Of a stretch of DNA of 64,000 nucleotides, positions 7,643-44,412 are shown piece by piece. Under the pieces are notes generated by a model that worked only from the letters and a program-made list of their open reading frames with translations, had not been told where the DNA came from and made no database searches. The position numbers and the translations under genes were made by a program. Every line of letters begins with the position of its first letter. Position 1 is the stretch's first letter. Source of the DNA: an uncultured Flavobacteriaceae bacterium (lineage in GTDB: Bacteria; Bacteroidota; Bacteroidia; Flavobacteriales; Flavobacteriaceae); assembly GCA_937944485.1 (NCBI GenBank), contig CALDYU010000005.1, positions 124,001 through 188,000 of the forward strand, given 5' to 3'.

Positions 7643-10429
7643 TTATAAGTTATTGATTGTCCAAGATAGATAGTACATTGAACCTATAAATCCAGTACCA
7701 AAAGCAGTGAAATACTCTGTACCTAAAAGGTTTGTTCCGCCTAATTTAAATTCCGATTTTATACTCGGAATTCTATAATTAATCTGCGCATCAAGCGTGT
7801 GGAATTCTGGAACTACACCTTCGCCAAAAGTTGCTTCCCAGAAATAATCGTCGCTAAATCTATAAGCCATATTAAATCCAAAATTTTTGAAAAGCTCTCT
7901 ATTACCAAAGTTGGCTTTGAATTTATGCTCCGGAGTATTAAAGTTGAGCATTACATCTGGAAAAGCTTCTCGATCAAAATCAAGCTTTGTAAAGGTATAA
8001 CTACCTCCTAAATCAAAATTACCAAGAACCTTTGCGGTTAATCCTATTGACGCTCCATATGAATTAACATCTGCCTCAGAGTTCGTATAGGTACTATATG
8101 CTTGAAAATCTCCATTTCCAATTGCAGCTATTGACAGCGCCCCATCACCAGCAGTTCCGTAATACGGTGCAATCACAACTTCTTGAGATATAAAGTCTTT
8201 ATACTGATTATAATACGTGCTAAAATCAATAGTGAATTTATCTATTTTACCTCTGTAACCCACTTCTACTGAGGTAACCTGCTCTGGTCTTACAATATCG
8301 GGGTTTGCTACTTCTAAAACTGCCGGATTACCTGTTTCACCAAGGCTTGTTACTGAGCTCAACGTGTATGAGTTATTGTATGCAGCTGCTCCAGTTTGCG
8401 TTATACTTGCTGGTTGACCCAGTGCTTGACCTCCTCCGCTAACTTCAAAAGTTCGTGAATAACGATCTAAATTCTCAGGAGCAGAGCCTACTAAGATAGC
8501 TCTACCAGCATCTAATCCTATAAATAAATCTTGTGTTGTTGGATTTCTAAATCCTGTTTGCACGGAAGCTCTAATATTGTGATTTCTATTTACGGTTAAA
8601 CCAGCAGATAATCTAGGTGATAAGAACCCGTCAAAAAATTCAGATTTATCATAACGCATTGAACCTGTCAGTTTCAAATTCATTGCATCATTCAATTCAA
8701 AGCCTTTTTGAATTTGCGTATAAATACCGAATTCAGAGTAATCGATAGGACCATCAGCATCAGTATATATTGTGCCAAAAGAATTTAAACTATATTGCCT
8801 AAAAGACCCCCCAACTTGAATATCTGCAAAATCAGTTAGGTGACTAAAATTATAATTGGCATCAGCATGATAGTATTTTGATGCATCTTGAAATTTAGAC
8901 CCTGTAGATAAATCAGGGTCATTAATACTTCTGTTAAACGCAGCTATAAACTCTGGAGAACCTGGTTCAAAGCGTCCGCTTTCAGCAGTTGCTCTTCCCG
9001 CAGCATGGGCTTGTTCATTGGTGCCTCCTCCCAAGGTAGTCAATACATAGGCTCCTACATATTCTCCAAACCAAGTATTATCATCTTTCCAAGCTCTATT
9101 TATATTAATGCCTGTAAAAACCATGTCATACGAGTCACCCGCTTTATCTGCAACTACATAACCTCTTAAGAAGAAATTGTCATTACGGATTTCTAATTTA
9201 TGCTGTTCTTGAAAAAAGTTATCTATATTATATCTATTCGTTCCCTGATATATAGTGGACCCTGTACCAACTTTACCAACATAAGATAGCTCTAAACTAT
9301 TGTTTTCAATTGGTCTATAATACAATCCCCAATCAGCTTTGATACTCTCCGCGTTATAATCTGTTAAATCACGTTCATTATATCCTGTTCTACTAACGGT
9401 TACAGAAGGCACAAGTGCATTGGCTCCTGACGGTAAAATACCCAACCCTTCTAAGGTAACTGCTACATCTTTAATATCAGTTGCTACCTCATCTCCATAA
9501 ACATTAATTCCATCATAATTTAAGTTAGCTCTAGTATTACCTGCAACAAATTTATCTACCTCGCTGGTTGCTGCCCAATCAGTACCTTTTAGGTATCCAA
9601 AATTGACTTTGACTGCAAATTTATCACTAAACTTATGCGCAGCTCTTATACCTAAATCTGTATATTCATTATTTCCTGCAGCTTCTTGTGACGTTACCCC
9701 TCTTTTTACATAAGCACTTATTCCCTGATAATCAAAAGGACTTTTAGACCGCATAAACAGAATACCATTAAAAGCATTTGCCCCGTATAATGCAGAAGAT
9801 GCACCTGGAAGCAATTCAACACTTTGGACATCAGTTTCAATCATACCTACTAAATTTCCAATAGGAAAATTCAATGCTGGGGTGGAATTATCCATTCCAT
9901 CAACTAACTGCATAAATCGCGTGTTTGCAAAACTTGCAAAACCTCTGGTATTAATAGATTTAAAAGTCAAACTGTTGGTGTTCACATCAACACCCTTTAA
10001 ATTTTCTAAGCCATCATAAAAATCGGCAGATGCCGTATTTTTTATTTCTTTTAGCCCAAATCGTTCTACTGTAACGGGTGATTCAAAAATTCGTTCTGGA
10101 GTTCTTGACGCCGATATTACCACTTCATCAAGAAATGTTTCGGATTCTTCGAGTACAATCGTCAAGTTTTGATTGTTTTCAGCTACATCTACCGTAGCTT
10201 CAGCAAAACCCAGCGAAGTAATTCTCAACTGAAAGGGGGGAGTCTCAGAAGTTTCTAGTTTAAACAAACCATCAAAATCTGCAGTAGTTCCAATTGTTGT
10301 GCCAACAATTACAACATTTGCACCTGGTATTGGTTCATTATTCTGATCAACAACTTTCCCGCTAATAGTTGTCTGTGCAAAACTGCCTAATGCAAACAAA
10401 AGGGCGGATAAAAAAAGTACTGTTCTCAT
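7643..10429 (-). CDS. TonB-dependent receptor with carboxypeptidase-regulatory-like N-terminus
   Basis: Outer-membrane active transporter of 928 residues. A signal peptide (to about residue 18) is followed by a CarboxypepD_reg-like domain (TISGKVVDQNNEPIPGANVVIVG, about 20-105), then a plug with EVVISASRTPERIFESPVTVERF and VQSVELLPGASSALYGANAFNGIL, then a long beta-barrel ending in an aromatic strand. The barrel has many NxxxFxxxY strand patterns. The substrate is unknown; the downstream SGNH lipoprotein suggests an acylated or acetylated ligand such as lipid or decorated glycan. No SusD partner is present. A perfect 16-bp palindrome lies about 85 bases upstream of the start. Confidence 0.93.
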   Translation of the reverse strand: MRTVLFLSALLFALGSFAQTTISGKVVDQNNEPIPGANVVIVGTTIGTTADFDGLFKLETSETPPFQLRITSLGFAEATVDVAENNQNLTIVLEESETFLDEVVISASRTPERIFESPVTVERFGLKEIKNTASADFYDGLENLKGVDVNTNSLTFKSINTRGFASFANTRFMQLVDGMDNSTPALNFPIGNLVGMIETDVQSVELLPGASSALYGANAFNGILFMRSKSPFDYQGISAYVKRGVTSQEAAGNNEYTDLGIRAAHKFSDKFAVKVNFGYLKGTDWAATSEVDKFVAGNTRANLNYDGINVYGDEVATDIKDVAVTLEGLGILPSGANALVPSVTVSRTGYNERDLTDYNAESIKADWGLYYRPIENNSLELSYVGKVGTGSTIYQGTNRYNIDNFFQEQHKLEIRNDNFFLRGYVVADKAGDSYDMVFTGININRAWKDDNTWFGEYVGAYVLTTLGGGTNEQAHAAGRATAESGRFEPGSPEFIAAFNRSINDPDLSTGSKFQDASKYYHADANYNFSHLTDFADIQVGGSFRQYSLNSFGTIYTDADGPIDYSEFGIYTQIQKGFELNDAMNLKLTGSMRYDKSEFFDGFLSPRLSAGLTVNRNHNIRASVQTGFRNPTTQDLFIGLDAGRAILVGSAPENLDRYSRTFEVSGGGQALGQPASITQTGAAAYNNSYTLSSVTSLGETGNPAVLEVANPDIVRPEQVTSVEVGYRGKIDKFTIDFSTYYNQYKDFISQEVVIAPYYGTAGDGALSIAAIGNGDFQAYSTYTNSEADVNSYGASIGLTAKVLGNFDLGGSYTFTKLDFDREAFPDVMLNFNTPEHKFKANFGNRELFKNFGFNMAYRFSDDYFWEATFGEGVVPEFHTLDAQINYRIPSIKSEFKLGGTNLLGTEYFTAFGTGFIGSMYYLSWTINNL

Positions 10430-34740: not shown

Positions 34741-35121
34741 TTATTTTGAAATTCCAATTTTATTTATTTCTTTATTTAATGTAAAATTTAAGGTCGGTTT
34801 TAAAAAGTACCTATGTATCTCTTCCATTGAATAATAGCGACCCATTTTTTTAAACCTTTGCCTAAATGCAATTATTTTTTCTTTTCTGTTGTCATTTAAT
34901 TCGTTAAGCACTAAATAATAGGCCTCTTTATTTTTTACTTTAAAAAATGCTTGCCTAAATATAGTATCACTCTTAAAGAGATAATGTGCTTTTTGCGCAT
35001 ACTTCATATCAGTGAACTCACTACTTGCTAAAATTTTCGCTTTATATCGTTCCTTTCTAGATTGCGAGTTCATAGACGTAACAAAAAATATCCCCAAACA
35101 AAAAATTAAAATATACCTCAT
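34741..35121 (-). CDS. Uncharacterised secreted basic protein
   Basis: 126 residues with a signal peptide (MRYILIFCLGIFFVTSMNSQ). The mature part is helical and basic, with repeated charged stretches (RKERYKAKILASSEF, NELNDNRKEKIIAFRQRFKKMG) and the sequence GRYYSMEEIHRYFLKPTLNF. There is no lipobox Cys. No family recognised. It converges on the 111-residue gene, ending 13 bases from it. Confidence 0.6.
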   Translation of the reverse strand: MRYILIFCLGIFFVTSMNSQSRKERYKAKILASSEFTDMKYAQKAHYLFKSDTIFRQAFFKVKNKEAYYLVLNELNDNRKEKIIAFRQRFKKMGRYYSMEEIHRYFLKPTLNFTLNKEINKIGISK

Positions 35122-35229: not shown

Positions 35230-36036
35230 CTAGTCAATACCACTACAACGGGTCTCTAGCAATAAAATGTCTTGTAGGTCTCGAATGACTAGTTGAAAAT
35301 TTTCACGTTCTCGTAAAAGTACACCTGTAATTGTACCATTCCCTGAAGGCAATGGTGTCACTTGAAAATCAGAAAATCCGCTGTTAAGTAGTACAATTTC
35401 ATTACCGTCGCAATCCACTAAAGTACGTTCGGTTTCTTCTCTAACTTCAGCAAATAACAACCCGAGCTCTTTTTCAATAATTTCAACATCTTCCAAACTA
35501 ATCAAAGTATTGGTCAATCGCTTTTCAAGTGCTGTAATAGTCGTTTTTTGAGGCATGATAGATACGGGATTATCACATGCTACAATAATGTGATCAGCTA
35601 TAACGGTTTTTGGAAGCCGCCCAATAAACAGATTGCCAAATGACGGAAAAGTGGCTCCTAATTTAAAAACATCCTTCGATTTTCCTAAATAGAGTCCTTT
35701 TAATTTTATGAAAATTTTACTCCCAGATGGGTAAAAAAGATGCGAATCGCGCAAATCAATTTCAATTTGAAAACCTTCTGTTGGGTTTTCTGCGCGATCT
35801 TGAAAATGAAGCACGCTAAAGAAGTTTCCCATTTCATCGGAAGAATTTACAAAGCCTTCAATAATAAGGTCATCTTGTATTTGGATTGTGCTTTCTTGAA
35901 ACAAGTTTTTAACCTCTAAATAGGTAGTATTCGCAACTAAATCTACACAAGAATCACTTTCAGGCGCTTCAAAATTTCGATCTTTAACACAGCCAAACAT
36001 CAAGCTAAAACATAATACTATACTTAACCATTTCAT
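35230..36036 (-). CDS. DUF5689 lipoprotein, OB-fold-like
   Basis: 268-residue lipoprotein (lipobox MFGC, C16). The region about 50-115 (DDLIIEGFVNSSDEMGNFFSVLHFQD through PSGSKIFIKLKGLYLGKSKDVFKLG) shows the strand order and glycines of an OB-fold as found in secreted bacterial nucleases, and a second similar unit follows at about 165-255 (TNTLISLEDVEI ... ITGVLLRERENFQLVIRD). It is translated 47 bases after the TonB receptor at 36.1 kb and faces a secreted nuclease gene. I infer nucleic-acid or nucleotide binding at the cell surface. Confidence 0.8.
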   Translation of the reverse strand: MKWLSIVLCFSLMFGCVKDRNFEAPESDSCVDLVANTTYLEVKNLFQESTIQIQDDLIIEGFVNSSDEMGNFFSVLHFQDRAENPTEGFQIEIDLRDSHLFYPSGSKIFIKLKGLYLGKSKDVFKLGATFPSFGNLFIGRLPKTVIADHIIVACDNPVSIMPQKTTITALEKRLTNTLISLEDVEIIEKELGLLFAEVREETERTLVDCDGNEIVLLNSGFSDFQVTPLPSGNGTITGVLLRERENFQLVIRDLQDILLLETRCSGID

Positions 36037-36083
36037 AAGTTCTTTTTTTCATACTCGTCATAAAAACGAATACTGGCGTTTAT

Positions 36084-38804
36084 TTAAAAACTAAATGCAA
36101 CATTTAAGAAATAGGTGCGCCCATAGCCGTACCAATATTTCGGTGCGAAAGATGGGGTGCCACTTAAATTATCTTGTTGCAATTGACCAAAATTGCCATT
36201 TCTACTTTGTTCATATCCCCCGGTTCTAAATACCGCATCAAAAACATTATTTATACTAGCAAAAACACTTATATATTTTCCGTTTTTTAGCCATGATTTA
36301 CCTCCCACCAGATTAAGCAAATAAAAACTATCTAAAGGTTTTTGCGTAAGTAACTTGCTTACATTTTCGTCAGTTGCATCGGGAAAAGGGGCGTTGGTTT
36401 CTGGGTCAATGTAAAAACTCTCTGTTCTCGTTATAGTAGAAATATTCCCATAGTTACTGGTCATATAATTCGCTGTCGTACCAACCCACCAGTATTTCGG
36501 ATCACGGTAATTTATGCCTAATGCAAAAGCTTGTTGCGGTCCTTGGGCGAGTTTATAGCCCTTAATACTAGCTCTACCAAGATCAACATTTCCAGTGTCG
36601 CTTATTCCATTTTCTGTTACTGTTGAAGTATCAAAATTTATCGCAACAGATGGGTTATTCGAATACACAAATTTTCCTAAAGCTGCCACACCATTTAATT
36701 GAACTGCTGAAGAGATTTGATATGCTAGACCTAATTCTATACCCGAATGTGTTTTTTTAATATCAGTCAGTACTTCTTGTACAAAATCAGAACCGATACC
36801 CGAATCAACAAAAAAGAAATTTACATCTGTCACTCCCTTAAATTGTGTATGATATCCGGTAATTCTACCTGTTAGCTTAGGAAGCCTTAAATTATAATTA
36901 ACAGCAACAGCTTCTACCCTTTCGCTTTCGACCTGAGGAACAACTTGGTTATTTTCACGGGGATTTACAAAAGCGTTTTGCAAGGTTGGTGGTTTTCGCA
37001 TTAAAGCACCGTGCAACTGAAGGTTATGCCGGCTATTAAAACTATAATCTAATCCCATTTTAGCACTGACATCTTTAAAGTTTAGTGATTCACTAGGCCC
37101 CAATGAATTGTTTAAATAGCGTTCATTTTGAAAATGACCATTTCGCTGGTACCCAGTATTTGATAGGCTTCCCGAAATAAATGCATTCCATTTTTTTTGC
37201 TTTATTCTAAATTGAGCAAAAGTTTGTAATTGAGAGGCCGTAATATCATAATAGTAGTTGAAAATATCATTTGTCTCCCTATTGATATTTCCAGAGATAT
37301 CATTTTTAGTATTTGAAAATGTATCAATGTCTTCGTGAAAATCAGCTCCTAATAGATCGTTGATTTGTGCAAAGTTTTTCGAATTAAGTTTTTGATAAAC
37401 AACGCCAAAGTCTAATTTTAAAAAGTCAGTTATTTGAACATTCGCGGAGCCGTTAAGTGTTAGTTGCTCATCTTTTATAACATCATCATACACCATATAG
37501 GCAGCTCTTCCATTGGAATTCGCCGTATAGAGTTGCGACCAATCTATTTGTTGATTTTGTAGCAAACCTTCGCGCGCGATTTCAGCGTTCCTAAAATTTG
37601 CTCCGATACTGCTGTTAATATAGAAGCTTGGTAAATACCTATAATAAATAGGGTCCGGATTTGGCGCATTGTAATATCCTAATCGACCTCTAGCATGTTT
37701 ACCAAACTGATATGCTATGCCTGTATTTAATTGAAATTTCTTGCCCTCGAACAGATAATTAAGCATCACTATTGGTTCTTGAATTTTTCGTTCTTTCGAG
37801 TTACGAATTTTACCGTTTTGCATACCCCAATTTGGATTAAAACGTCGCCCTAATAATTCAAACACTTCTTCTGTAAGTGCCGAAGAACGCCCTCTTCGAT
37901 TTGAAGCAAGAATGGCTGACAACAGTACGGTACTACGAGAGCTCATCTGATATTCAATAGCTCCAAAAACAGAAAAGGCATCATATAAAGTGCCATCATT
38001 ATAGCCTTGCGATGCCCATCTTCTGGAAGAAGATACGACGTAATTCATATTTTTTTTACGTGGAGAAGTATAGGTGACCATAAACCTCCCAGCATAAGTT
38101 CTATTTGACATTGAAGAAGAAATTCTGGTGCCGCTTCTAGACTTAGAGGGTCGCGTGTCAATATTAGAAGTGCCTAATAAGTCTCCGAAATTAATAGCTG
38201 TGGCTTGCAAACCCAGACTAAATTTTTGGTTTCGCATTACATCATTGAGACCGCCCCAATTATTCCATTGCGGTCGGCCATCATGAAATTTATTCATAGG
38301 TAATCCATTGATAAGGATTTTTCCATATTGAGCATCATAGCCACGAACCCGAAAAAAAGCTTGTCCGAAATCAAACGCGGCTCTGTTTAAAAATAAGTCT
38401 CGACTTGCTTGTAGCAGACTCGAATTATTTATGCTAGCCTCATCTTCAAGCAATTCAGCATCGGATATAGCAATAAGATTGTTGCTTTGATTTCTAACAA
38501 TATCTCTTTCTAAAAAAAGCGCTCCAATTTCTTGAACTTTATTTTTTAAAGTGACTTGCAGTCGTTTGGTTACATATCCTTCTAAAGAGATATTCAAAAT
38601 ATAAGTGCCTTGCACCAAATTCATGGTGAAACGACCATCGATAGTTGAATTTGTATGCTTTAAAGTCTCTTCAACTAGAATTTTTACCCCAACCAATGGT
38701 TTCTTTTCTCGATCACTTACAATTCGTCCTTTAATCGTAGTTTCTTGTGTAAATCCTAACCTGAGGGCAAAAAGAAAAAGGCTAATTGCAGTTAAATAAG
38801 GCAT
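36084..38804 (-). CDS. TonB-dependent receptor linked to DUF5689 and a secreted nuclease
   Basis: 906 residues: signal peptide, CarboxypepD_reg-like domain (TIKGRIVSDREKKPLVGVKILVEE, about 21-100), plug (about 110-225; includes SSLLQASRDLFLNRAAFDFGQAFFRVRGYDAQYGKILINGLPMN) and a barrel ending in an aromatic strand (YGRTYFLNVAFSF). The plug sequence is unusual compared with the iron-type receptor at 22.8 kb. It is co-transcribed with the DUF5689 lipoprotein and lies head to head, 87 bases apart, with the secreted EEP nuclease. The ligand may be DNA fragments or nucleotides (inference from context only). Confidence 0.9.
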   Translation of the reverse strand: MPYLTAISLFLFALRLGFTQETTIKGRIVSDREKKPLVGVKILVEETLKHTNSTIDGRFTMNLVQGTYILNISLEGYVTKRLQVTLKNKVQEIGALFLERDIVRNQSNNLIAISDAELLEDEASINNSSLLQASRDLFLNRAAFDFGQAFFRVRGYDAQYGKILINGLPMNKFHDGRPQWNNWGGLNDVMRNQKFSLGLQATAINFGDLLGTSNIDTRPSKSRSGTRISSSMSNRTYAGRFMVTYTSPRKKNMNYVVSSSRRWASQGYNDGTLYDAFSVFGAIEYQMSSRSTVLLSAILASNRRGRSSALTEEVFELLGRRFNPNWGMQNGKIRNSKERKIQEPIVMLNYLFEGKKFQLNTGIAYQFGKHARGRLGYYNAPNPDPIYYRYLPSFYINSSIGANFRNAEIAREGLLQNQQIDWSQLYTANSNGRAAYMVYDDVIKDEQLTLNGSANVQITDFLKLDFGVVYQKLNSKNFAQINDLLGADFHEDIDTFSNTKNDISGNINRETNDIFNYYYDITASQLQTFAQFRIKQKKWNAFISGSLSNTGYQRNGHFQNERYLNNSLGPSESLNFKDVSAKMGLDYSFNSRHNLQLHGALMRKPPTLQNAFVNPRENNQVVPQVESERVEAVAVNYNLRLPKLTGRITGYHTQFKGVTDVNFFFVDSGIGSDFVQEVLTDIKKTHSGIELGLAYQISSAVQLNGVAALGKFVYSNNPSVAINFDTSTVTENGISDTGNVDLGRASIKGYKLAQGPQQAFALGINYRDPKYWWVGTTANYMTSNYGNISTITRTESFYIDPETNAPFPDATDENVSKLLTQKPLDSFYLLNLVGGKSWLKNGKYISVFASINNVFDAVFRTGGYEQSRNGNFGQLQQDNLSGTPSFAPKYWYGYGRTYFLNVAFSF

Positions 38805-38891
38805 TTAGGGGAAGTTTGATATTACAAGAAAACCAATATATTAATTATCTTACATTTATATGCGTATTTTCTTAAAAAGAATTTTTATAAA

Positions 38892-39959
38892 ATGAAGCTT
38901 TATAGTCTATTTCTAGTTTTTCTTTTACCATTATGGCTAAGTGCGCAGGCTAAGCGAGAATACGAAGTGCGGACCATTGCTTTTTACAATGTTGAAAATC
39001 TTTTTGATATCTACAATGACACATTGGCTTTTGATGATGATAGAACTCCTGAGGGTAAAGACCGATGGACACAAGAAAGATATCAGCATAAGATTACCCA
39101 AACCTCAAAAGTTATTTCAGAAATAGGCCGCGAAATAACAAGATCAGCTCCAGATATTATCGGTTTATGTGAAATAGAAAATAAGCAAGTTGTTGAAGAC
39201 CTTATCGCAAGTGAAATGTTACGTAAGAATACTTATGGAATTATTCACTTTGATTCGCCTGATGAACGCGGTATTGATGTGGCTTTGCTTTTTAAAAAAA
39301 ATGCTTTTAATGTGCATACTTTCAAAAGTCACCGCTTGCTACTTTACAATGAAGAGGGTTTTCGTGATTATACAAGAGATCAGCTGGTTGTTGGCGGTAT
39401 ACTAGACAATGAAGCGTTTTACTTTATTGTCAATCATTGGCCTTCTAGAAGTGGTGGAGAATCACGAAGCAGACCCTTTCGTTTGGCTGCTGCAAAACTG
39501 AACAAGCGTATTATAGATTCGCTACACAAAGTCGATATACAAGCAAAAATAATAAGTATGGGCGATTTTAATGACGACCCTACTAGCGATAGCTTTAAGA
39601 AAATACTACGAACAAAAGGAAAGACAAAAAAAATTGACTCTCTTAATTTGATTAATCCGATGGAAAAAATATTCAAGAAAGGTTACGGGTCTTTAGCCTA
39701 CCGTGATAAATGGAATCTGTTTGATCAGTTTTATTTTAGTTCAAATTTATTAAACCTCAATTCACAAGAGTTTAGGTTTTGGAAGGCTGGAATTTATAAT
39801 CCGAATTATTTAATAACTCAAAATGGAAAATACGAAGGGTACCCATTGCGAACCTATGCCGGAGGCAGTTATCTTGGAGGATATTCAGACCATTTTCCTG
39901 TATTTATGTATTTGATTAGAGAAAGTACTTCCCGAACCCCTCCAAAGGAGGGAAATTAA
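38892..39959 (+). CDS. Secreted endonuclease/exonuclease/phosphatase (EEP) nuclease
   Basis: Signal peptide (MKLYSLFLVFLLPLWLSAQ) followed by an EEP domain with every catalytic block: FYNVENLFDI (N33 and E35), IGLCEIENK (E94), VNHWPSRSGGESRSRPFR (His), MGDFNDDPTSDSF (Asp-x-Asn) and YSDHFPVF (D333, H334). The FYNVENLFD and NHWPSR forms are those of secreted DNases/RNases rather than ExoIII. It is exported to the periplasm or beyond. The last ten residues (TSRTPPKEGN) are encoded by a short palindromic repeat that has entered the 3' end of the gene. It is divergent from the TonB/DUF5689 operon. Confidence 0.9.
   Translation: MKLYSLFLVFLLPLWLSAQAKREYEVRTIAFYNVENLFDIYNDTLAFDDDRTPEGKDRWTQERYQHKITQTSKVISEIGREITRSAPDIIGLCEIENKQVVEDLIASEMLRKNTYGIIHFDSPDERGIDVALLFKKNAFNVHTFKSHRLLLYNEEGFRDYTRDQLVVGGILDNEAFYFIVNHWPSRSGGESRSRPFRLAAAKLNKRIIDSLHKVDIQAKIISMGDFNDDPTSDSFKKILRTKGKTKKIDSLNLINPMEKIFKKGYGSLAYRDKWNLFDQFYFSSNLLNLNSQEFRFWKAGIYNPNYLITQNGKYEGYPLRTYAGGSYLGGYSDHFPVFMYLIRESTSRTPPKEGN
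39928..39957. repeat. REP-like palindromic element at the nuclease 3' end
   Basis: CCCTCC (39938-39943) and GGAGGG (39947-39952) close a 3-base AAA loop, inside a GC-rich island (CCCGAACCCCTCC...) that stands out from the AT-rich surroundings. It resembles the CCCTCCAAAGGAGGG-type interspersed element common in flavobacterial genomes (from memory). It spans the last codons and stop of the nuclease gene. Confidence 0.55.
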
Positions 39960-39970
39960 CTTAACAACTA

Positions 39971-40558
39971 TTAAAGTTCCGTAATCATCAGATTTCGCCA
40001 TTTTACTTTAATGCCTCCCCCGTCGTGAATTTGTAGCGCCACCGACCCTTCACCTGCACCAATAATTTCATCAGAAAGCTTAATCATTTGGGTGCCGTTC
40101 AACCATGAGGTTATGGTATCTCCGTCAACGCGTATTTTCATGGTGTTCCATTCACCCATTTTAAGGGCTTTGTCTTTTTCGGGGTCTGGTTTTATCAACC
40201 ATCCACGACCATAAGATTCATAAACCCCACCAGTATCAAAGCCAGGGGGCGCTACCTCAACTTGCCAACCGCTCACTGTGGTACCATCTACAGTGGAGCG
40301 AATAAAGACACCACTATTGCCATTCGCTTCTTGTTTGAAATCTAAGGTTAATTCGAAATTCTTATAATGTTTATTTGTTGCTAAATAGCCATAGGCCTTG
40401 TCAGGACCACTTTCACAAACCAATAAGCCCTTTTCAACGTACCATTTTTCGGTGCCATAAATCGTCCAACCATCGAGATTTTCTCCATTAAACAACGATT
40501 TTTGAGCTGTTGTACAACTTACCAATAATACGACACAGACTATTGCTATCTTTTTCAT
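39971..40558 (-). CDS. DUF1080 (3-keto-disaccharide hydrolase-type) lipoprotein
   Basis: 195 residues, lipoprotein signal with lipobox VVSC (C15). The mature part is one concanavalin-like jelly-roll: SLFNGENLDGWTIYGTEKWYVEKGLLVC, FELTLDFKQEANGNSGVFIRS, WQVEVAPPG, GEWNTMKIRVDGDTITSWLNG and IALQIHDGG-type end, the DUF1080 order. Family members bind or cleave sugars, some being 3-keto-glycoside hydrolases. The substrate here is unknown. It follows the small membrane protein gene by 50 bases. Confidence 0.88.
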   Translation of the reverse strand: MKKIAIVCVVLLVSCTTAQKSLFNGENLDGWTIYGTEKWYVEKGLLVCESGPDKAYGYLATNKHYKNFELTLDFKQEANGNSGVFIRSTVDGTTVSGWQVEVAPPGFDTGGVYESYGRGWLIKPDPEKDKALKMGEWNTMKIRVDGDTITSWLNGTQMIKLSDEIIGAGEGSVALQIHDGGGIKVKWRNLMITEL

Positions 40559-41145: not shown

Positions 41146-44100
41146 TTAGAAGCTATATCTCAAACCTAGTTGAGCTTGCCATCTTGAAGACTGCAGTCCA
41201 AAATCATCGAGTTCTACTAAATTAGGACTTCCATCTGCATTAATAACACCATCATTTACACTAAATACAGGAATTCCTCCACTTGTTGAAACTGTCTGTA
41301 AAGGACTTACATTTCTTCGGATAAATTTGCGTTGCCCCCATTCTGAATTCAACAAATTGGTGAAGTTAAAAATATCAGCAGAAACTTGTAGGGTATGCTT
41401 TTTATCACCAACATTAAAAGAGAAATCTTGTAATAGTTTAAAATCTACTACATGGCTCCAAGGACCTCTTACAGCGTTTCTTTCAGCATAATTTCCTCTA
41501 TTTTCACTAAGGTATTCATTGCTATTAATGAAAGTGTTTAGACGCTGCCATTGAGCCGCTTGCTCGGCCGCATCACCTGATAACTGAATTTCACCCGCTG
41601 AAGCTGGAATATAGATTAAGGCATTATCTCTAGAATCATCATTCAATAAATCTCGCCCTTCTCTATACGTAAAACTATACGGGCCACTCTGTGAACCATC
41701 ATAGGTTAAACCGAAGGTTGTTTTTACATTTTCATTCCAAGCAAATTGATATGAAAAATTCGCAAAAATTCTATTCCCTAATGCAAAATCAGAACGAGAA
41801 ACTGGTATTCTAGAATTTTTTCCATTTACCGTTTGAATGTTTCTCCATTGCGAACTATTTTGAGAAGATGTGCCATCAAATATTTTATTTGACTCTCCGT
41901 AAGTATAGGAAACCTGACCTGCAAAACCATTTTCAAATGGTTTACGCAATGTAAATGTTAAATTAGTAGCATCACCACCGCCTGTATTCGAAGCTAGAAT
42001 AATTCGACCATAGGTATCATCAATTTCATCTCCTCTATTGTAAAAAGGTCTGCTATCTGCACCGTCATATCTTCCCACGGGCCCTCTCAAGTTCAAGTTT
42101 TCATAATAGATATCTGTAATGACATCAGTATATAAGAAATCTGCAGAAGCAATTAAATTCCACCATGGCAACTTATGATCGATGGCAATATTATACTTTA
42201 CTACTTGCGGCAATTTAAAATCTTCTGCCAATAGGTCAATATTTCCACCAACACCACCAGAACCTGGAGCAACATTTTCAAATTGGTTATTTACATCTGG
42301 CTCAAAGGCTTGGCCTGCACCTGGACCAAAGAAAGTAGCATCAAAAGTAAAACCACCAGTAACTCCATTATTATTATAAGTTCCGCCTGGCCAAACTAAA
42401 GGTAAACGCGAGGTAAATACTCCTAAGCCACCACGAACCTGCGTTGTTCTATCTCCGTTTACATCCCAATTAAACCCAAGTCTTGGCGCTAAATGGGCTA
42501 TGCCTTTGATACCTTGACCTACCCGAGCCCCTTGCAAATTTTTTCCTGCACTTTCTAACAAACCGACCGTTCTTGTATTAAAATCTTGATTTTCAGAACC
42601 ATCTTCCCAATAAGGGATATCTACTCTAACACCCATGCTGGCCTTGAAATTATCACTTATTTGAAAATCATCTTGCACATAGAAACCGGCTTGGAAAGTT
42701 TTAAAATCAGCAGAACCTGCAGATTCATCACCATTAATTCCGTTTCCTACTAAAGAATAACCATGCTGATACACATCTGAAATTTGTCCAGTCAAAAACT
42801 GATTTAATCCTGAAGAAGTCAAATTACCATCATCATCAAATTGATCTTCGAAAGTATAGTCTCCGAAATTAAAAGCGAAGAAGAGGTTTTTGACAGAAGC
42901 AAATTCAAGGTTCGCACCTAATGTAAAGGTGTGTTTACCTGAATAAATTTCGAAATTATTTGTTATAGTTGTTAAATCTGTATTTAACAAGTTGGCCGTT
43001 GAAAAAGGCTCTGAACCAAAAGAAATTGTTCCGTCACCATCTTGTATATCAACCGTTGGGAAAGGATCTCCTAAAGGATCTCTATCATCTCTAACAGCAG
43101 TGTAAGTCAAAATTAGATTGTTAGCGTATTTATTTCCGAAACTAGAGCTTAATTCTAAGGCCGTGGAATTCGTATTAGAAATAAAGGCTTCTGAACCGTT
43201 TATGAACCCAATATTTCTATTACCTGAATTTCTCGCTTCAAGGTTATCAGCACCTACATAACCATGTCTTAAGGACAACTTATGATTATCACTAATATTC
43301 CAATCTATTTTAGCTGTAATTTTATTACTTTCTAAGGTTCTGGTATTGTTATCAAAAATGCCAGGGTTGTATCCATACGTAGATTGAAGAAAATTACTTA
43401 ATCCCGTGATATCGGCTTCCGAAGCCCTTCCAGTATAGTTACTAAAATTAAACGGTTGTGGTACTTCTTCATCTTGACGCTCGTAGTTAAAGAAAAAGAA
43501 TAATTTATCTTTTATAATAGGACCTCCAACTCTAAGACCATAAGTAAGTGCGCTAAAGTCATCAACTTTTTCTCTTTCTTCACCGTCTCCTACTAATGAG
43601 GGTGGTGTTTTGCCAACTAAACTTTGGTTTCGTACAAATCCATATGCCGAACCTTCAATTTCATTAGACCCCGATCGGGTTATTGCGTTTATTGAACCTC
43701 CTGAAAAACCCGATTGCCTAACATCAAAAGGGGCTATGTTTATTTGAAAAGACGCTATCGCATCTACTGAAAAGGGGTTCACCCCAGTTTGACCTCCGTT
43801 AGTACCAGAACCTGCTAAACCAAAAACATCATTATTAGCTGCACCATCAATATAAATAGCATTGTATCTATTATTTTGACCTGCTAGCGAAATAGAAAAA
43901 CCATCATTCCCTTCCGTAATTTGAGCCTGAGGAGTAATTCTTACGAAGTCTGCGATTGATCGTGAGGCAGCTGGTAATGTTGCTATATCTCTCTCGGAAA
44001 CATTTGTTTCAGTACCCGTTTTGTTCGATCCAAAAATACTATTGTTAGTTGCGGTTACAATGACTTCATCTAAGGCCGTTGAAGATTCAACCATTTTGGA

Positions 44101-44412
44101 ATTAATTCTTGCGGTTTGGCCTAAATCGAAAAATAAATTTTCACGTACATCATCATTAAAACCAACATAAGATATTGTCACTTTATACGGGCCACCAACT
44201 CTCATATTAGCTATTCTGTAATACCCATCAAAATCGGCAATTGCTCCGTAAGTGGTTCCTGAAGCAACATGAACCGCGACAATATTCGCCCCTAATAATG
44301 GCTCACCTGAACTGTCCGTTACCTGACCCCCTATGGCAGCTGTGGTAACACCTTGCGAAAATGCAATGGTCGTTATAAATAACGATACCATTGTGAAGTA
44401 GATTTTTTTCAT
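41146..44412 (-). CDS. Oar-like TonB-dependent receptor
   Basis: 1088 residues: signal peptide, CarboxypepD_reg-like domain (AAIGGQVTDSSGEPLLGANIVAVH, about 25-110), and a plug with EVIVTATNNSIFGSNKTGTETNVSERDIATLPAASRSIADFVRITPQAQ and FDVRQSGFSGGSINAITRSGSNEIEGSAYGF. These are the marks of the Oar group (Myxococcus Oar and flavobacterial homologues), longer than ordinary receptors. The barrel ends ARWQ-type LGLRYSF. Substrate unknown; Oar proteins have been linked to export of a signalling protease in Myxococcus. It forms a single-gene unit with its own terminator. Confidence 0.9.
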   Translation of the reverse strand: MKKIYFTMVSLFITTIAFSQGVTTAAIGGQVTDSSGEPLLGANIVAVHVASGTTYGAIADFDGYYRIANMRVGGPYKVTISYVGFNDDVRENLFFDLGQTARINSKMVESSTALDEVIVTATNNSIFGSNKTGTETNVSERDIATLPAASRSIADFVRITPQAQITEGNDGFSISLAGQNNRYNAIYIDGAANNDVFGLAGSGTNGGQTGVNPFSVDAIASFQINIAPFDVRQSGFSGGSINAITRSGSNEIEGSAYGFVRNQSLVGKTPPSLVGDGEEREKVDDFSALTYGLRVGGPIIKDKLFFFFNYERQDEEVPQPFNFSNYTGRASEADITGLSNFLQSTYGYNPGIFDNNTRTLESNKITAKIDWNISDNHKLSLRHGYVGADNLEARNSGNRNIGFINGSEAFISNTNSTALELSSSFGNKYANNLILTYTAVRDDRDPLGDPFPTVDIQDGDGTISFGSEPFSTANLLNTDLTTITNNFEIYSGKHTFTLGANLEFASVKNLFFAFNFGDYTFEDQFDDDGNLTSSGLNQFLTGQISDVYQHGYSLVGNGINGDESAGSADFKTFQAGFYVQDDFQISDNFKASMGVRVDIPYWEDGSENQDFNTRTVGLLESAGKNLQGARVGQGIKGIAHLAPRLGFNWDVNGDRTTQVRGGLGVFTSRLPLVWPGGTYNNNGVTGGFTFDATFFGPGAGQAFEPDVNNQFENVAPGSGGVGGNIDLLAEDFKLPQVVKYNIAIDHKLPWWNLIASADFLYTDVITDIYYENLNLRGPVGRYDGADSRPFYNRGDEIDDTYGRIILASNTGGGDATNLTFTLRKPFENGFAGQVSYTYGESNKIFDGTSSQNSSQWRNIQTVNGKNSRIPVSRSDFALGNRIFANFSYQFAWNENVKTTFGLTYDGSQSGPYSFTYREGRDLLNDDSRDNALIYIPASAGEIQLSGDAAEQAAQWQRLNTFINSNEYLSENRGNYAERNAVRGPWSHVVDFKLLQDFSFNVGDKKHTLQVSADIFNFTNLLNSEWGQRKFIRRNVSPLQTVSTSGGIPVFSVNDGVINADGSPNLVELDDFGLQSSRWQAQLGLRYSF

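Follow-up and report, generated by a model that had tools for sequence, protein, structure and literature searches.

This work concerns three genes in a 64,000-nucleotide stretch of DNA from an uncultured Flavobacteriaceae bacterium (GenBank assembly GCA_937944485.1, contig CALDYU010000005.1, positions 124,001 to 188,000; the whole stretch is called the window below). They encode a TonB-dependent-receptor-like outer-membrane protein (TBDR), a DUF5689 lipoprotein and an exported nuclease of the EEP family, and in our opinion they probably serve DNA uptake for natural transformation. According to this explanation the TBDR and the DUF5689 lipoprotein would constitute the outer-membrane DNA-uptake module: the lipoprotein, anchored at the cell surface beside the receptor, would hold or guide DNA with its OB-folds, and the TonB-energised receptor would pass the DNA through the outer membrane, replacing the type IV pilus/secretin route, after which a ComEA-like helix-hairpin-helix protein and ComEC would carry it onward. 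The divergently transcribed EEP nuclease, probably periplasmic, would cut the incoming duplex or degrade a strand, or else limit or recycle the DNA. The receptor/lipoprotein part of this explanation is firmer than the nuclease part. The essentiality of the receptor and DUF5689 genes and the effect of tonB were published elsewhere, in work on Riemerella; our own contribution is the orthology, the conserved gene order, the predicted folds and the identical catalytic-type residues. DNA binding, the passage of DNA through the barrel and all roles of the nuclease are what we infer.

The TBDR and DUF5689 genes stand in tandem, and the EEP gene lies head to head with the TBDR gene across 87 bases (Table 1). 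This layout had been given in a preliminary description of the stretch, and its coordinates were confirmed by an open reading frame (ORF) check. The most informative relatives of the three genes are those of Riemerella anatipestifer (statements on cited papers, here and below, refer to the portions of their text available to us). A transposon screen for natural transformation in this species covers the DUF5689 gene RA0C_RS04920, and markerless deletion of either this gene or RA0C_RS04915, which is described as a CarboxypepD_reg outer-membrane protein, brought transformation below detection, with no transformants (PMC8459023, Table 2). The authors of the screen speculated that RS04920 is the DNA-binding component and RS04915 the route for DNA across the outer membrane, and they report that R. 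anatipestifer lacks pilus homologues; in the available text RS04910 is mentioned once, as an upstream gene (PMC8459023). Deletion of tonBA or tonBB also lowers transformation of R. anatipestifer (PMC8383284). R. columbina is competent as well, and divalent cations are needed (PMC7965970).

Among the genomes that we searched, G439 is a Riemerella genome: it has an exact match to the published dprA primer, as the only one of the 320 genomes of its family, and an exact comEC primer match too. The gene order in it is recA, four genes, comEC, two genes, EEP, TBDR, DUF5689, if two short ORFs overlapping larger ones on the other strand are omitted. Because this order fits the RA0C numbering step by step, we equate the Riemerella EEP gene with RA0C_RS04910. 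The window's TBDR is 30% identical to its Riemerella counterpart over 940 columns (E=2e-140), and a receptor model made from related sequences scores 1205 bits on the Riemerella gene and 128 on the next protein in that genome. The DUF5689 parts are 30% identical (E=1e-36) and the EEP proteins 40% (E=6e-99), and in each case the alignment covers most of the protein. On these sequence comparisons, the TBDR/DUF5689 pair of the window is orthologous to RA0C_RS04915/RS04920. Of the papers searched, PMC8459023 is the only one that mentions DUF5689 or these RA0C locus tags; no report of a deletion of RA0C_RS04910 was found, and no published test of growth on DNA was found for the orthologous genes. 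In three loci of the Riemerella genus (L146, L149 and L150) comEC is present in the stretch around the uptake locus, and in L146 recA as well.

The three-gene arrangement is not due to chance; it is a conserved unit. The receptor family occurs in 42 of 148 sampled genomes of the order, with one match per genome (E<=1e-100). For the adjacency count the coordinates of all 42 receptor matches, 50 DUF5689 matches and 57 EEP matches were entered, and weak DUF5689 matches (nearly all from genomes without the receptor) and lower-scoring EEP matches were left out. The DUF5689 gene is directly downstream of the receptor gene in 40/42 receptor-bearing genomes, and, among the EEP matches listed, the EEP gene is head to head upstream of it in 31/42. 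All three genes stand together in 29/42, i.e. the 31 less two without an adjacent DUF5689 gene: G010 has it on another contig, G003 has an LTD/DUF5017 protein instead, and in both the EEP gene is head to head with the receptor gene. A larger set of named loci, which were the best 80 of 590 and are therefore biased by similarity towards close relatives, gave 77/80 for DUF5689 (in L082 only part of it is seen) and 67/80 for the head-to-head EEP gene (in L110 and L131 only as a shortened ORF). Ten of the 13 named loci without EEP are titled Flavobacterium, two are at contig ends and one is a contig of a metagenome-assembled genome. The preliminary description had named separation of DUF5689 and the nuclease in most genomes as grounds for refutation. 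The neighbourhood search bore out the linkage in the receptor-bearing genomes; in 10/16 Flavobacterium-titled loci the two are apart, and in the sampled genomes of the order each domain is also found without the other and away from the receptor, DUF5689 with matches in 84/148 genomes and PF19580, the Pfam family of the nuclease, in at least 96/148.

The receptor was found in 50/296 genomes of a phylum sample (E<=1e-60). It is present in 20/21 sampled genomes of the window's family, in 6/6 genomes of the Riemerella genus and, among the matches listed, in 19/19 genomes of a second family, where a genome lacking all three genes may have escaped the count. Two genomes were examined outside the order: in G506 the three genes are all present and arranged as in the window, and G464 lacks a DUF5689 gene directly downstream of the receptor gene. 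None of 22 pattern-matching stretches of viral contigs encoded a relative of the DUF5689 protein. The control genomes of Bacillus subtilis and Bacteroides ihuae gave matches to the DUF5689 family above its cut-off.

The DUF5689 protein of the window matches its Pfam family from residue 35 to 257 (profile positions 2-217 of 217, E=2.6e-64). A sequence search of the PDB found nothing convincing (best E 0.065). The AlphaFold2 model, which had a mean pLDDT (predicted local distance difference test score) of 93.4, gave 13 PDB matches at E<=0.001 (best Foldseek E 6.4e-5), titled HIN-200 and related DNA-sensor domains and the telomerase factor Teb1. HIN-200 domains contain two OB-folds each, and the 13 alignments, to tandem-OB proteins, have 206-230 columns, except one of 238. 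The next matches (E 2e-3 to 3e-2) were BRCA2, RPA-containing complexes, single-stranded-DNA-binding proteins and OB domains of tRNA synthetases. DUF5689 is therefore predicted to be a tandem OB-fold kind of protein; the kind of fold appears clear, the detailed match does not. This agrees with the OB-fold-like strand pattern that the preliminary description had seen twice in the sequence, and the non-OB prediction that it had named as a refutation is not what the modelling returned. Sequence comparisons support the fold independently: in L182 the Pfam OB-fold family PF01336 (residues 923-992) falls inside a DUF5689 stretch (899-1097), and in L178 and, weakly, in L180 a match to the N-terminal part of the ExeM/NucH model (NF033681 positions 21-113) overlaps a DUF5689 stretch. 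The proteins of L180 and L183 combine DUF5689 with PLD-type nuclease domains and a type IX secretion system (T9SS) tail. The OB-fold, these overlaps and the PLD-nuclease fusions make a link of the locus to nucleic acids likely.

In other families of the order DUF5689 is found within large T9SS-tailed proteins (L180:2166-4457, L183:1958-4234, L178:1076-5500 and L182:1821-5897); two of these four have the PLD-type fusion and two have lamin-tail (LTD) and OB-fold domains, and they are probably extracellular nucleases or DNA binders. Six of eight relatives scanned combine DUF5689 with LTD, and the Riemerella protein combines it with a choice-of-anchor J domain. A lipobox-like pattern, MFGC in the window, is present in 73/79 DUF5689 proteins. 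At least one acidic residue occurs among residues 2-5 after the cysteine in 65 of the 73, and at least two in 42, the commonest residues being V-K-D-D-D; the window's VKDRN is a weaker match. These N-termini resemble C-X-K-(D/E)2, the export signal of surface lipoproteins (PMC5080379).

The TBDR is recognised by Pfam through a CarbopepD_reg_2 domain (E=9.4e-13); Plug scored 20.7 bits, below the cut-off of 23.9, and no barrel model was found in Pfam up to E 1. A sequence search of the PDB gave only an 85-residue match of the N-terminal domain to a SusC-homologue chain (E 2.6e-4). The structure model (mean pLDDT 84.3) was matched by Foldseek to PqqU, Fiu, FhuA and BtuB, with E down to 2.6e-29 and template modelling (TM) scores, by target, up to 0.72, so the TBDR is predicted to have the fold of solved TonB-dependent transporters. 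The receptor family has a median net charge of -9 (n=109) and the other receptor-like proteins of the loci one of -41 (n=36); it must be noted that the p-value of this difference (1.7e-18) is not fair and the charge statistics are unsafe, because the proteins compared are related, and the control was chosen by similarity to the receptor model. The net charge of the window's TBDR is +17; two further proteins of the window that resemble receptors have -44 and -41, the second of these (7643-10429) being receptor-like by size and N-terminus only, and a third large protein in the comparison, with -33, is not a receptor. Going by sequence-derived charge, an unusually non-acidic receptor suits a polyanion as substrate.

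The nuclease is an EEP protein of family PF19580 (E=7.2e-119, 396.9 bits at a cut-off of 27). It carries FYNVENLFD and NHWPSR, and N33, E96, H182, D225, N227, D278, D333 and H334, which we take, from DNase I-like enzymes, to be the catalytic residues, are identical in 17/17 linked EEP proteins; the earlier statement that every catalytic block is present thus holds. A sequence search of the PDB gave no match. The same description called the nuclease secreted. Its signal-peptide-like N-terminus agrees with export; release into the medium is doubtful, since neither Pfam (up to E 1) nor NCBIfam (up to E 0.1) showed a T9SS sorting domain in it. Such a start without a sorting domain makes the periplasm the likeliest location, as far as the sequence can indicate it. 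By a simple pattern the lipobox is absent from 69/69 linked EEP proteins; one further protein, that of L053, looks like a lipoprotein. Five loci (L040, L042, L048, L117 and L135) have a second EEP gene downstream of the DUF5689 gene and facing it, so that two nuclease genes flank the operon. In the window's genome a second EEP gene is unlinked (G000:C8:140673-141590).

Table 1. Features of the uptake locus and its surroundings in the window
Feature	Position	Strand	Remarks
DUF5689 lipoprotein gene, 268 aa	35230-36036	-	orthologous to RA0C_RS04920 (30%), with a predicted OB-fold; the LTD or choice-of-anchor-J domain at the C-terminus of relatives is missing
TonB-dependent-receptor-like outer-membrane protein (TBDR), 906 aa	36084-38804	-	proposed to be the channel for DNA in the outer membrane; orthologous to RA0C_RS04915 (30% over 940 columns)
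Exported EEP-family nuclease, PF19580, 355 aa	38892-39959	+	40% identical to its Riemerella orthologue, which locus-tag counting equates with RA0C_RS04910
Intergenic region, 87 bp, between the divergent EEP and TBDR genes	38805-38891	.	no TAnnTTTG motif in the window copy
Small ORF, 126 aa, signal-peptide-like, downstream of DUF5689	34741-35121	-	the loci searched gave no relative from any other genome

In a set of 67 intergenic sequences (the window, 65 named loci and Riemerella) the motif TAnnTTTG occurs towards the EEP gene in 27/67 and towards the TBDR gene in 15/67, with letter shuffles giving about 6.5 each; this candidate shared-promoter motif was not found in the window's own gap. The small ORF was dropped as a conserved part of the locus because no relatives of it from other genomes were found in the loci searched. 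Just past the nuclease gene lie a 3-keto-disaccharide hydrolase (39971-40558) and a second receptor-like protein (OMP_b-brl_4; 41146-44412); nothing ties either to the three-gene unit.

Several observations weigh against the uptake explanation. The authors of the tonB work put the effect of tonBB down to iron shortage and that of tonBA possibly to nutrient transport (PMC8383284), and Flavobacterium johnsoniae could not be transformed when the conditions were kept the same (PMC7965970). Of the 161 sequences in which comEC was sought, many being short, only the three Riemerella-genus loci had it near the uptake locus, so comEC beside the locus is not a general rule. The Foldseek TM-scores of the DUF5689 model are about 0.3, and the protein is acidic (net charge -18 and isoelectric point 4.5 in the window; median charge -20 of 78), which speaks against a simple basic DNA-binding protein; the predicted fold would argue for DNA binding and the charge against it. 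It is possible, given this acidity, that DUF5689 acts as a lid, guide or receptor partner, or requires divalent cations. The window's genome itself gives a mixed picture. In favour of the explanation, it has ComEC and a helix-hairpin-helix (ComEA-like) protein, the latter with 25% identity (E 5e-11) to a Riemerella one, which sits roughly where locus-tag counting puts RS02645 and may be that gene. Against it, the dprA gene is split by a mobile element. A serine recombinase gene comes straight after its front part, and its winged-helix end lies about 15 kb further on. If dprA is interrupted in the living strain too, the strain should be non-transformable for as long as the mobile element remains. 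The DUF5689 protein of the window stops at the end of DUF5689, without a C-terminal domain, and no convincing LTD remnant was found downstream of it within the window. Secretin had no match in 8/10 genomes searched, Riemerella among them, which speaks for the uptake explanation, and was found in two, of which the window's is one. Because of the split dprA, the shortened DUF5689 protein and the secretin, transformation may have decayed in this genome or run otherwise. The dprA element, of about 15 kb, is outside the window on the same contig (G000:C5:485362-501427, i.e. L170:1362-17427), with the serine recombinase at one end; between the dprA pieces it also carries another resolvase, a pair of D12-class adenine methyltransferases and, recognised by eye, small regulator-like ORFs.

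The nuclease is the less firm part of the uptake explanation. It could be merely a neighbour, a housekeeping phosphoesterase or an enzyme that clears DNA or phage DNA from the periplasm, and the other two proteins could still function in uptake; we regard this as a real possibility, if on balance doubtful. It would account for the 11/42 receptor-bearing genomes in which no EEP gene is head to head, eight of them from one genus, g2, of which ten genomes were included (in six of the eight an EEP gene is 16-47 kb off on the same contig). PF19580 is spread far more widely than the receptor, and G109 (L174, G109:C1:1890000-1906000), of the window's family, retains an EEP protein close in sequence to that of the window, with no DUF5689 match and no receptor of the window's receptor family. 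In the available text of the screen the nuclease is not named among the 16 hit genes, and expression of RS04910 was unchanged by a transposon insertion in RS04915 (PMC8459023). Against mere neighbourhood speaks the linkage itself, which extends across several families and to G506, one of the two genomes examined outside the order, and which was kept in G003 and G010, where DUF5689 is not adjacent.

The purpose proposed in the preliminary description was nutrient scavenging, in which DNA or RNA caught by the lipoprotein would be cut by the nuclease and taken in through the receptor, as fragments that serve as a source of phosphorus, nitrogen or nucleotides. The nuclease's frequent place beside the receptor, the OB-fold prediction and nuclease fusions of DUF5689, and the pairing of lipoprotein and receptor as in Sus-like systems are all in keeping with it, and marine sediment bacteria do feed on DNA (PMC8289736). 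Scavenging as the purpose is nevertheless not supported, because in Riemerella, the only organism in which the orthologues of the receptor and DUF5689 genes were tested, loss of either one abolishes natural transformation (PMC8459023); in addition, the near-constant presence of the receptor in two families and in the Riemerella genus looks like a core function rather than a diet, and the nuclease has no T9SS tail in the searches given above. We consider scavenging unlikely, and it could coexist with DNA uptake for transformation. What stands of the earlier interpretation is the conserved unit, the OB-fold, the transporter fold and, in many relatives, a surface-lipoprotein-like N-terminus. A role of the pair in envelope or lipopolysaccharide (LPS) assembly, exporting or placing a surface component, with the loss of transformation and of LPS reactivity as side effects, appears quite improbable. 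It has in its favour, and to the detriment of the uptake explanation, that the Riemerella DUF5689 protein (L146:16730-18133) belongs to the NCBIfam family M949_1556 (599 bits, cut-off 475), which takes its name from a gene described as linked to LPS synthesis, antigenicity and pathogenicity. That M949_1556 is the orthologue of RS04920 rests, however, on the family model only, and the OB-folds, the nuclease fusions and the linked nuclease are left unexplained. PMC8459023 is not among the 12 papers found to name M949_1556.

The genetic core of the uptake explanation, the requirement of the receptor and DUF5689 for transformation, was already published in 2021. New are the conserved nuclease partner, the OB-fold of DUF5689, the resemblance to a split ExeM/NucH, the spread of the unit and the non-acidic receptor. 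Tentatively, and with less confidence than in uptake as such, we can imagine a more specific scheme in which flavobacteria and their relatives import transforming DNA by way of the TBDR, with no need of a secretin and type IV pilus, the surface OB-fold lipoprotein loads the barrel and a dedicated divergent EEP nuclease makes the single strand for ComEC, as if an ExeM-like DNase had been split and rebuilt around an outer-membrane channel. The matter bears on how DNA passes the outer membrane in bacteria without type IV pili or secretin. If the uptake explanation is true, a TonB-dependent receptor carries a polymer as large as DNA, by a machine encoded in 20/21 sampled genomes of one flavobacterial family and 19/19 of another (among the matches listed); DUF5689 would gain a function and the 2021 genetic finding a partner nuclease, and three defined proteins would become testable.

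It is useful to compare the locus with known systems. The closest is that of Riemerella (PMC8459023), which has the receptor and DUF5689 orthologues in the same order and on the same strand, and upstream of them an EEP gene in head-to-head orientation; the window differs from it in the missing C-terminal domain of DUF5689, the absence of comEC nearby and the interrupted dprA of its genome, and in the available text of the Riemerella work the nuclease is not counted among the parts of the system. The SusCD and BtuB/BtuG pairs, too, combine a TonB-dependent receptor with a surface lipoprotein whose gene comes directly after that of the receptor. The SusCD-like system of the preliminary description is good only as a working analogy; membership was rejected, since the receptor matches no SusC/RagA model in NCBIfam up to E 0.1, the model of the lipoprotein matches OB-folds, and the substrate is probably DNA. 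ExeM/NucH DNases (NF033681, NF033680) have LTD, OB and EEP parts in one chain. The window's EEP protein matches NF033681 at positions 236-485 (E 3.7e-9), the DUF5689 regions of L178 and L180 match the same model as described above, and the LTD part of a relative, L035, matches NF033680 near its N-terminus. The window has two divergently transcribed proteins instead, plus a receptor, and the scores are far below the family cut-offs (36 bits for EEP, cut-off 300), so the EEP protein was not accepted as a family member. For the EEP nuclease we propose an analogy with NucA of Bacillus and EndA of Streptococcus, which belong to a protein family other than EEP and in which a nuclease is likewise found next to a DNA-uptake machine.

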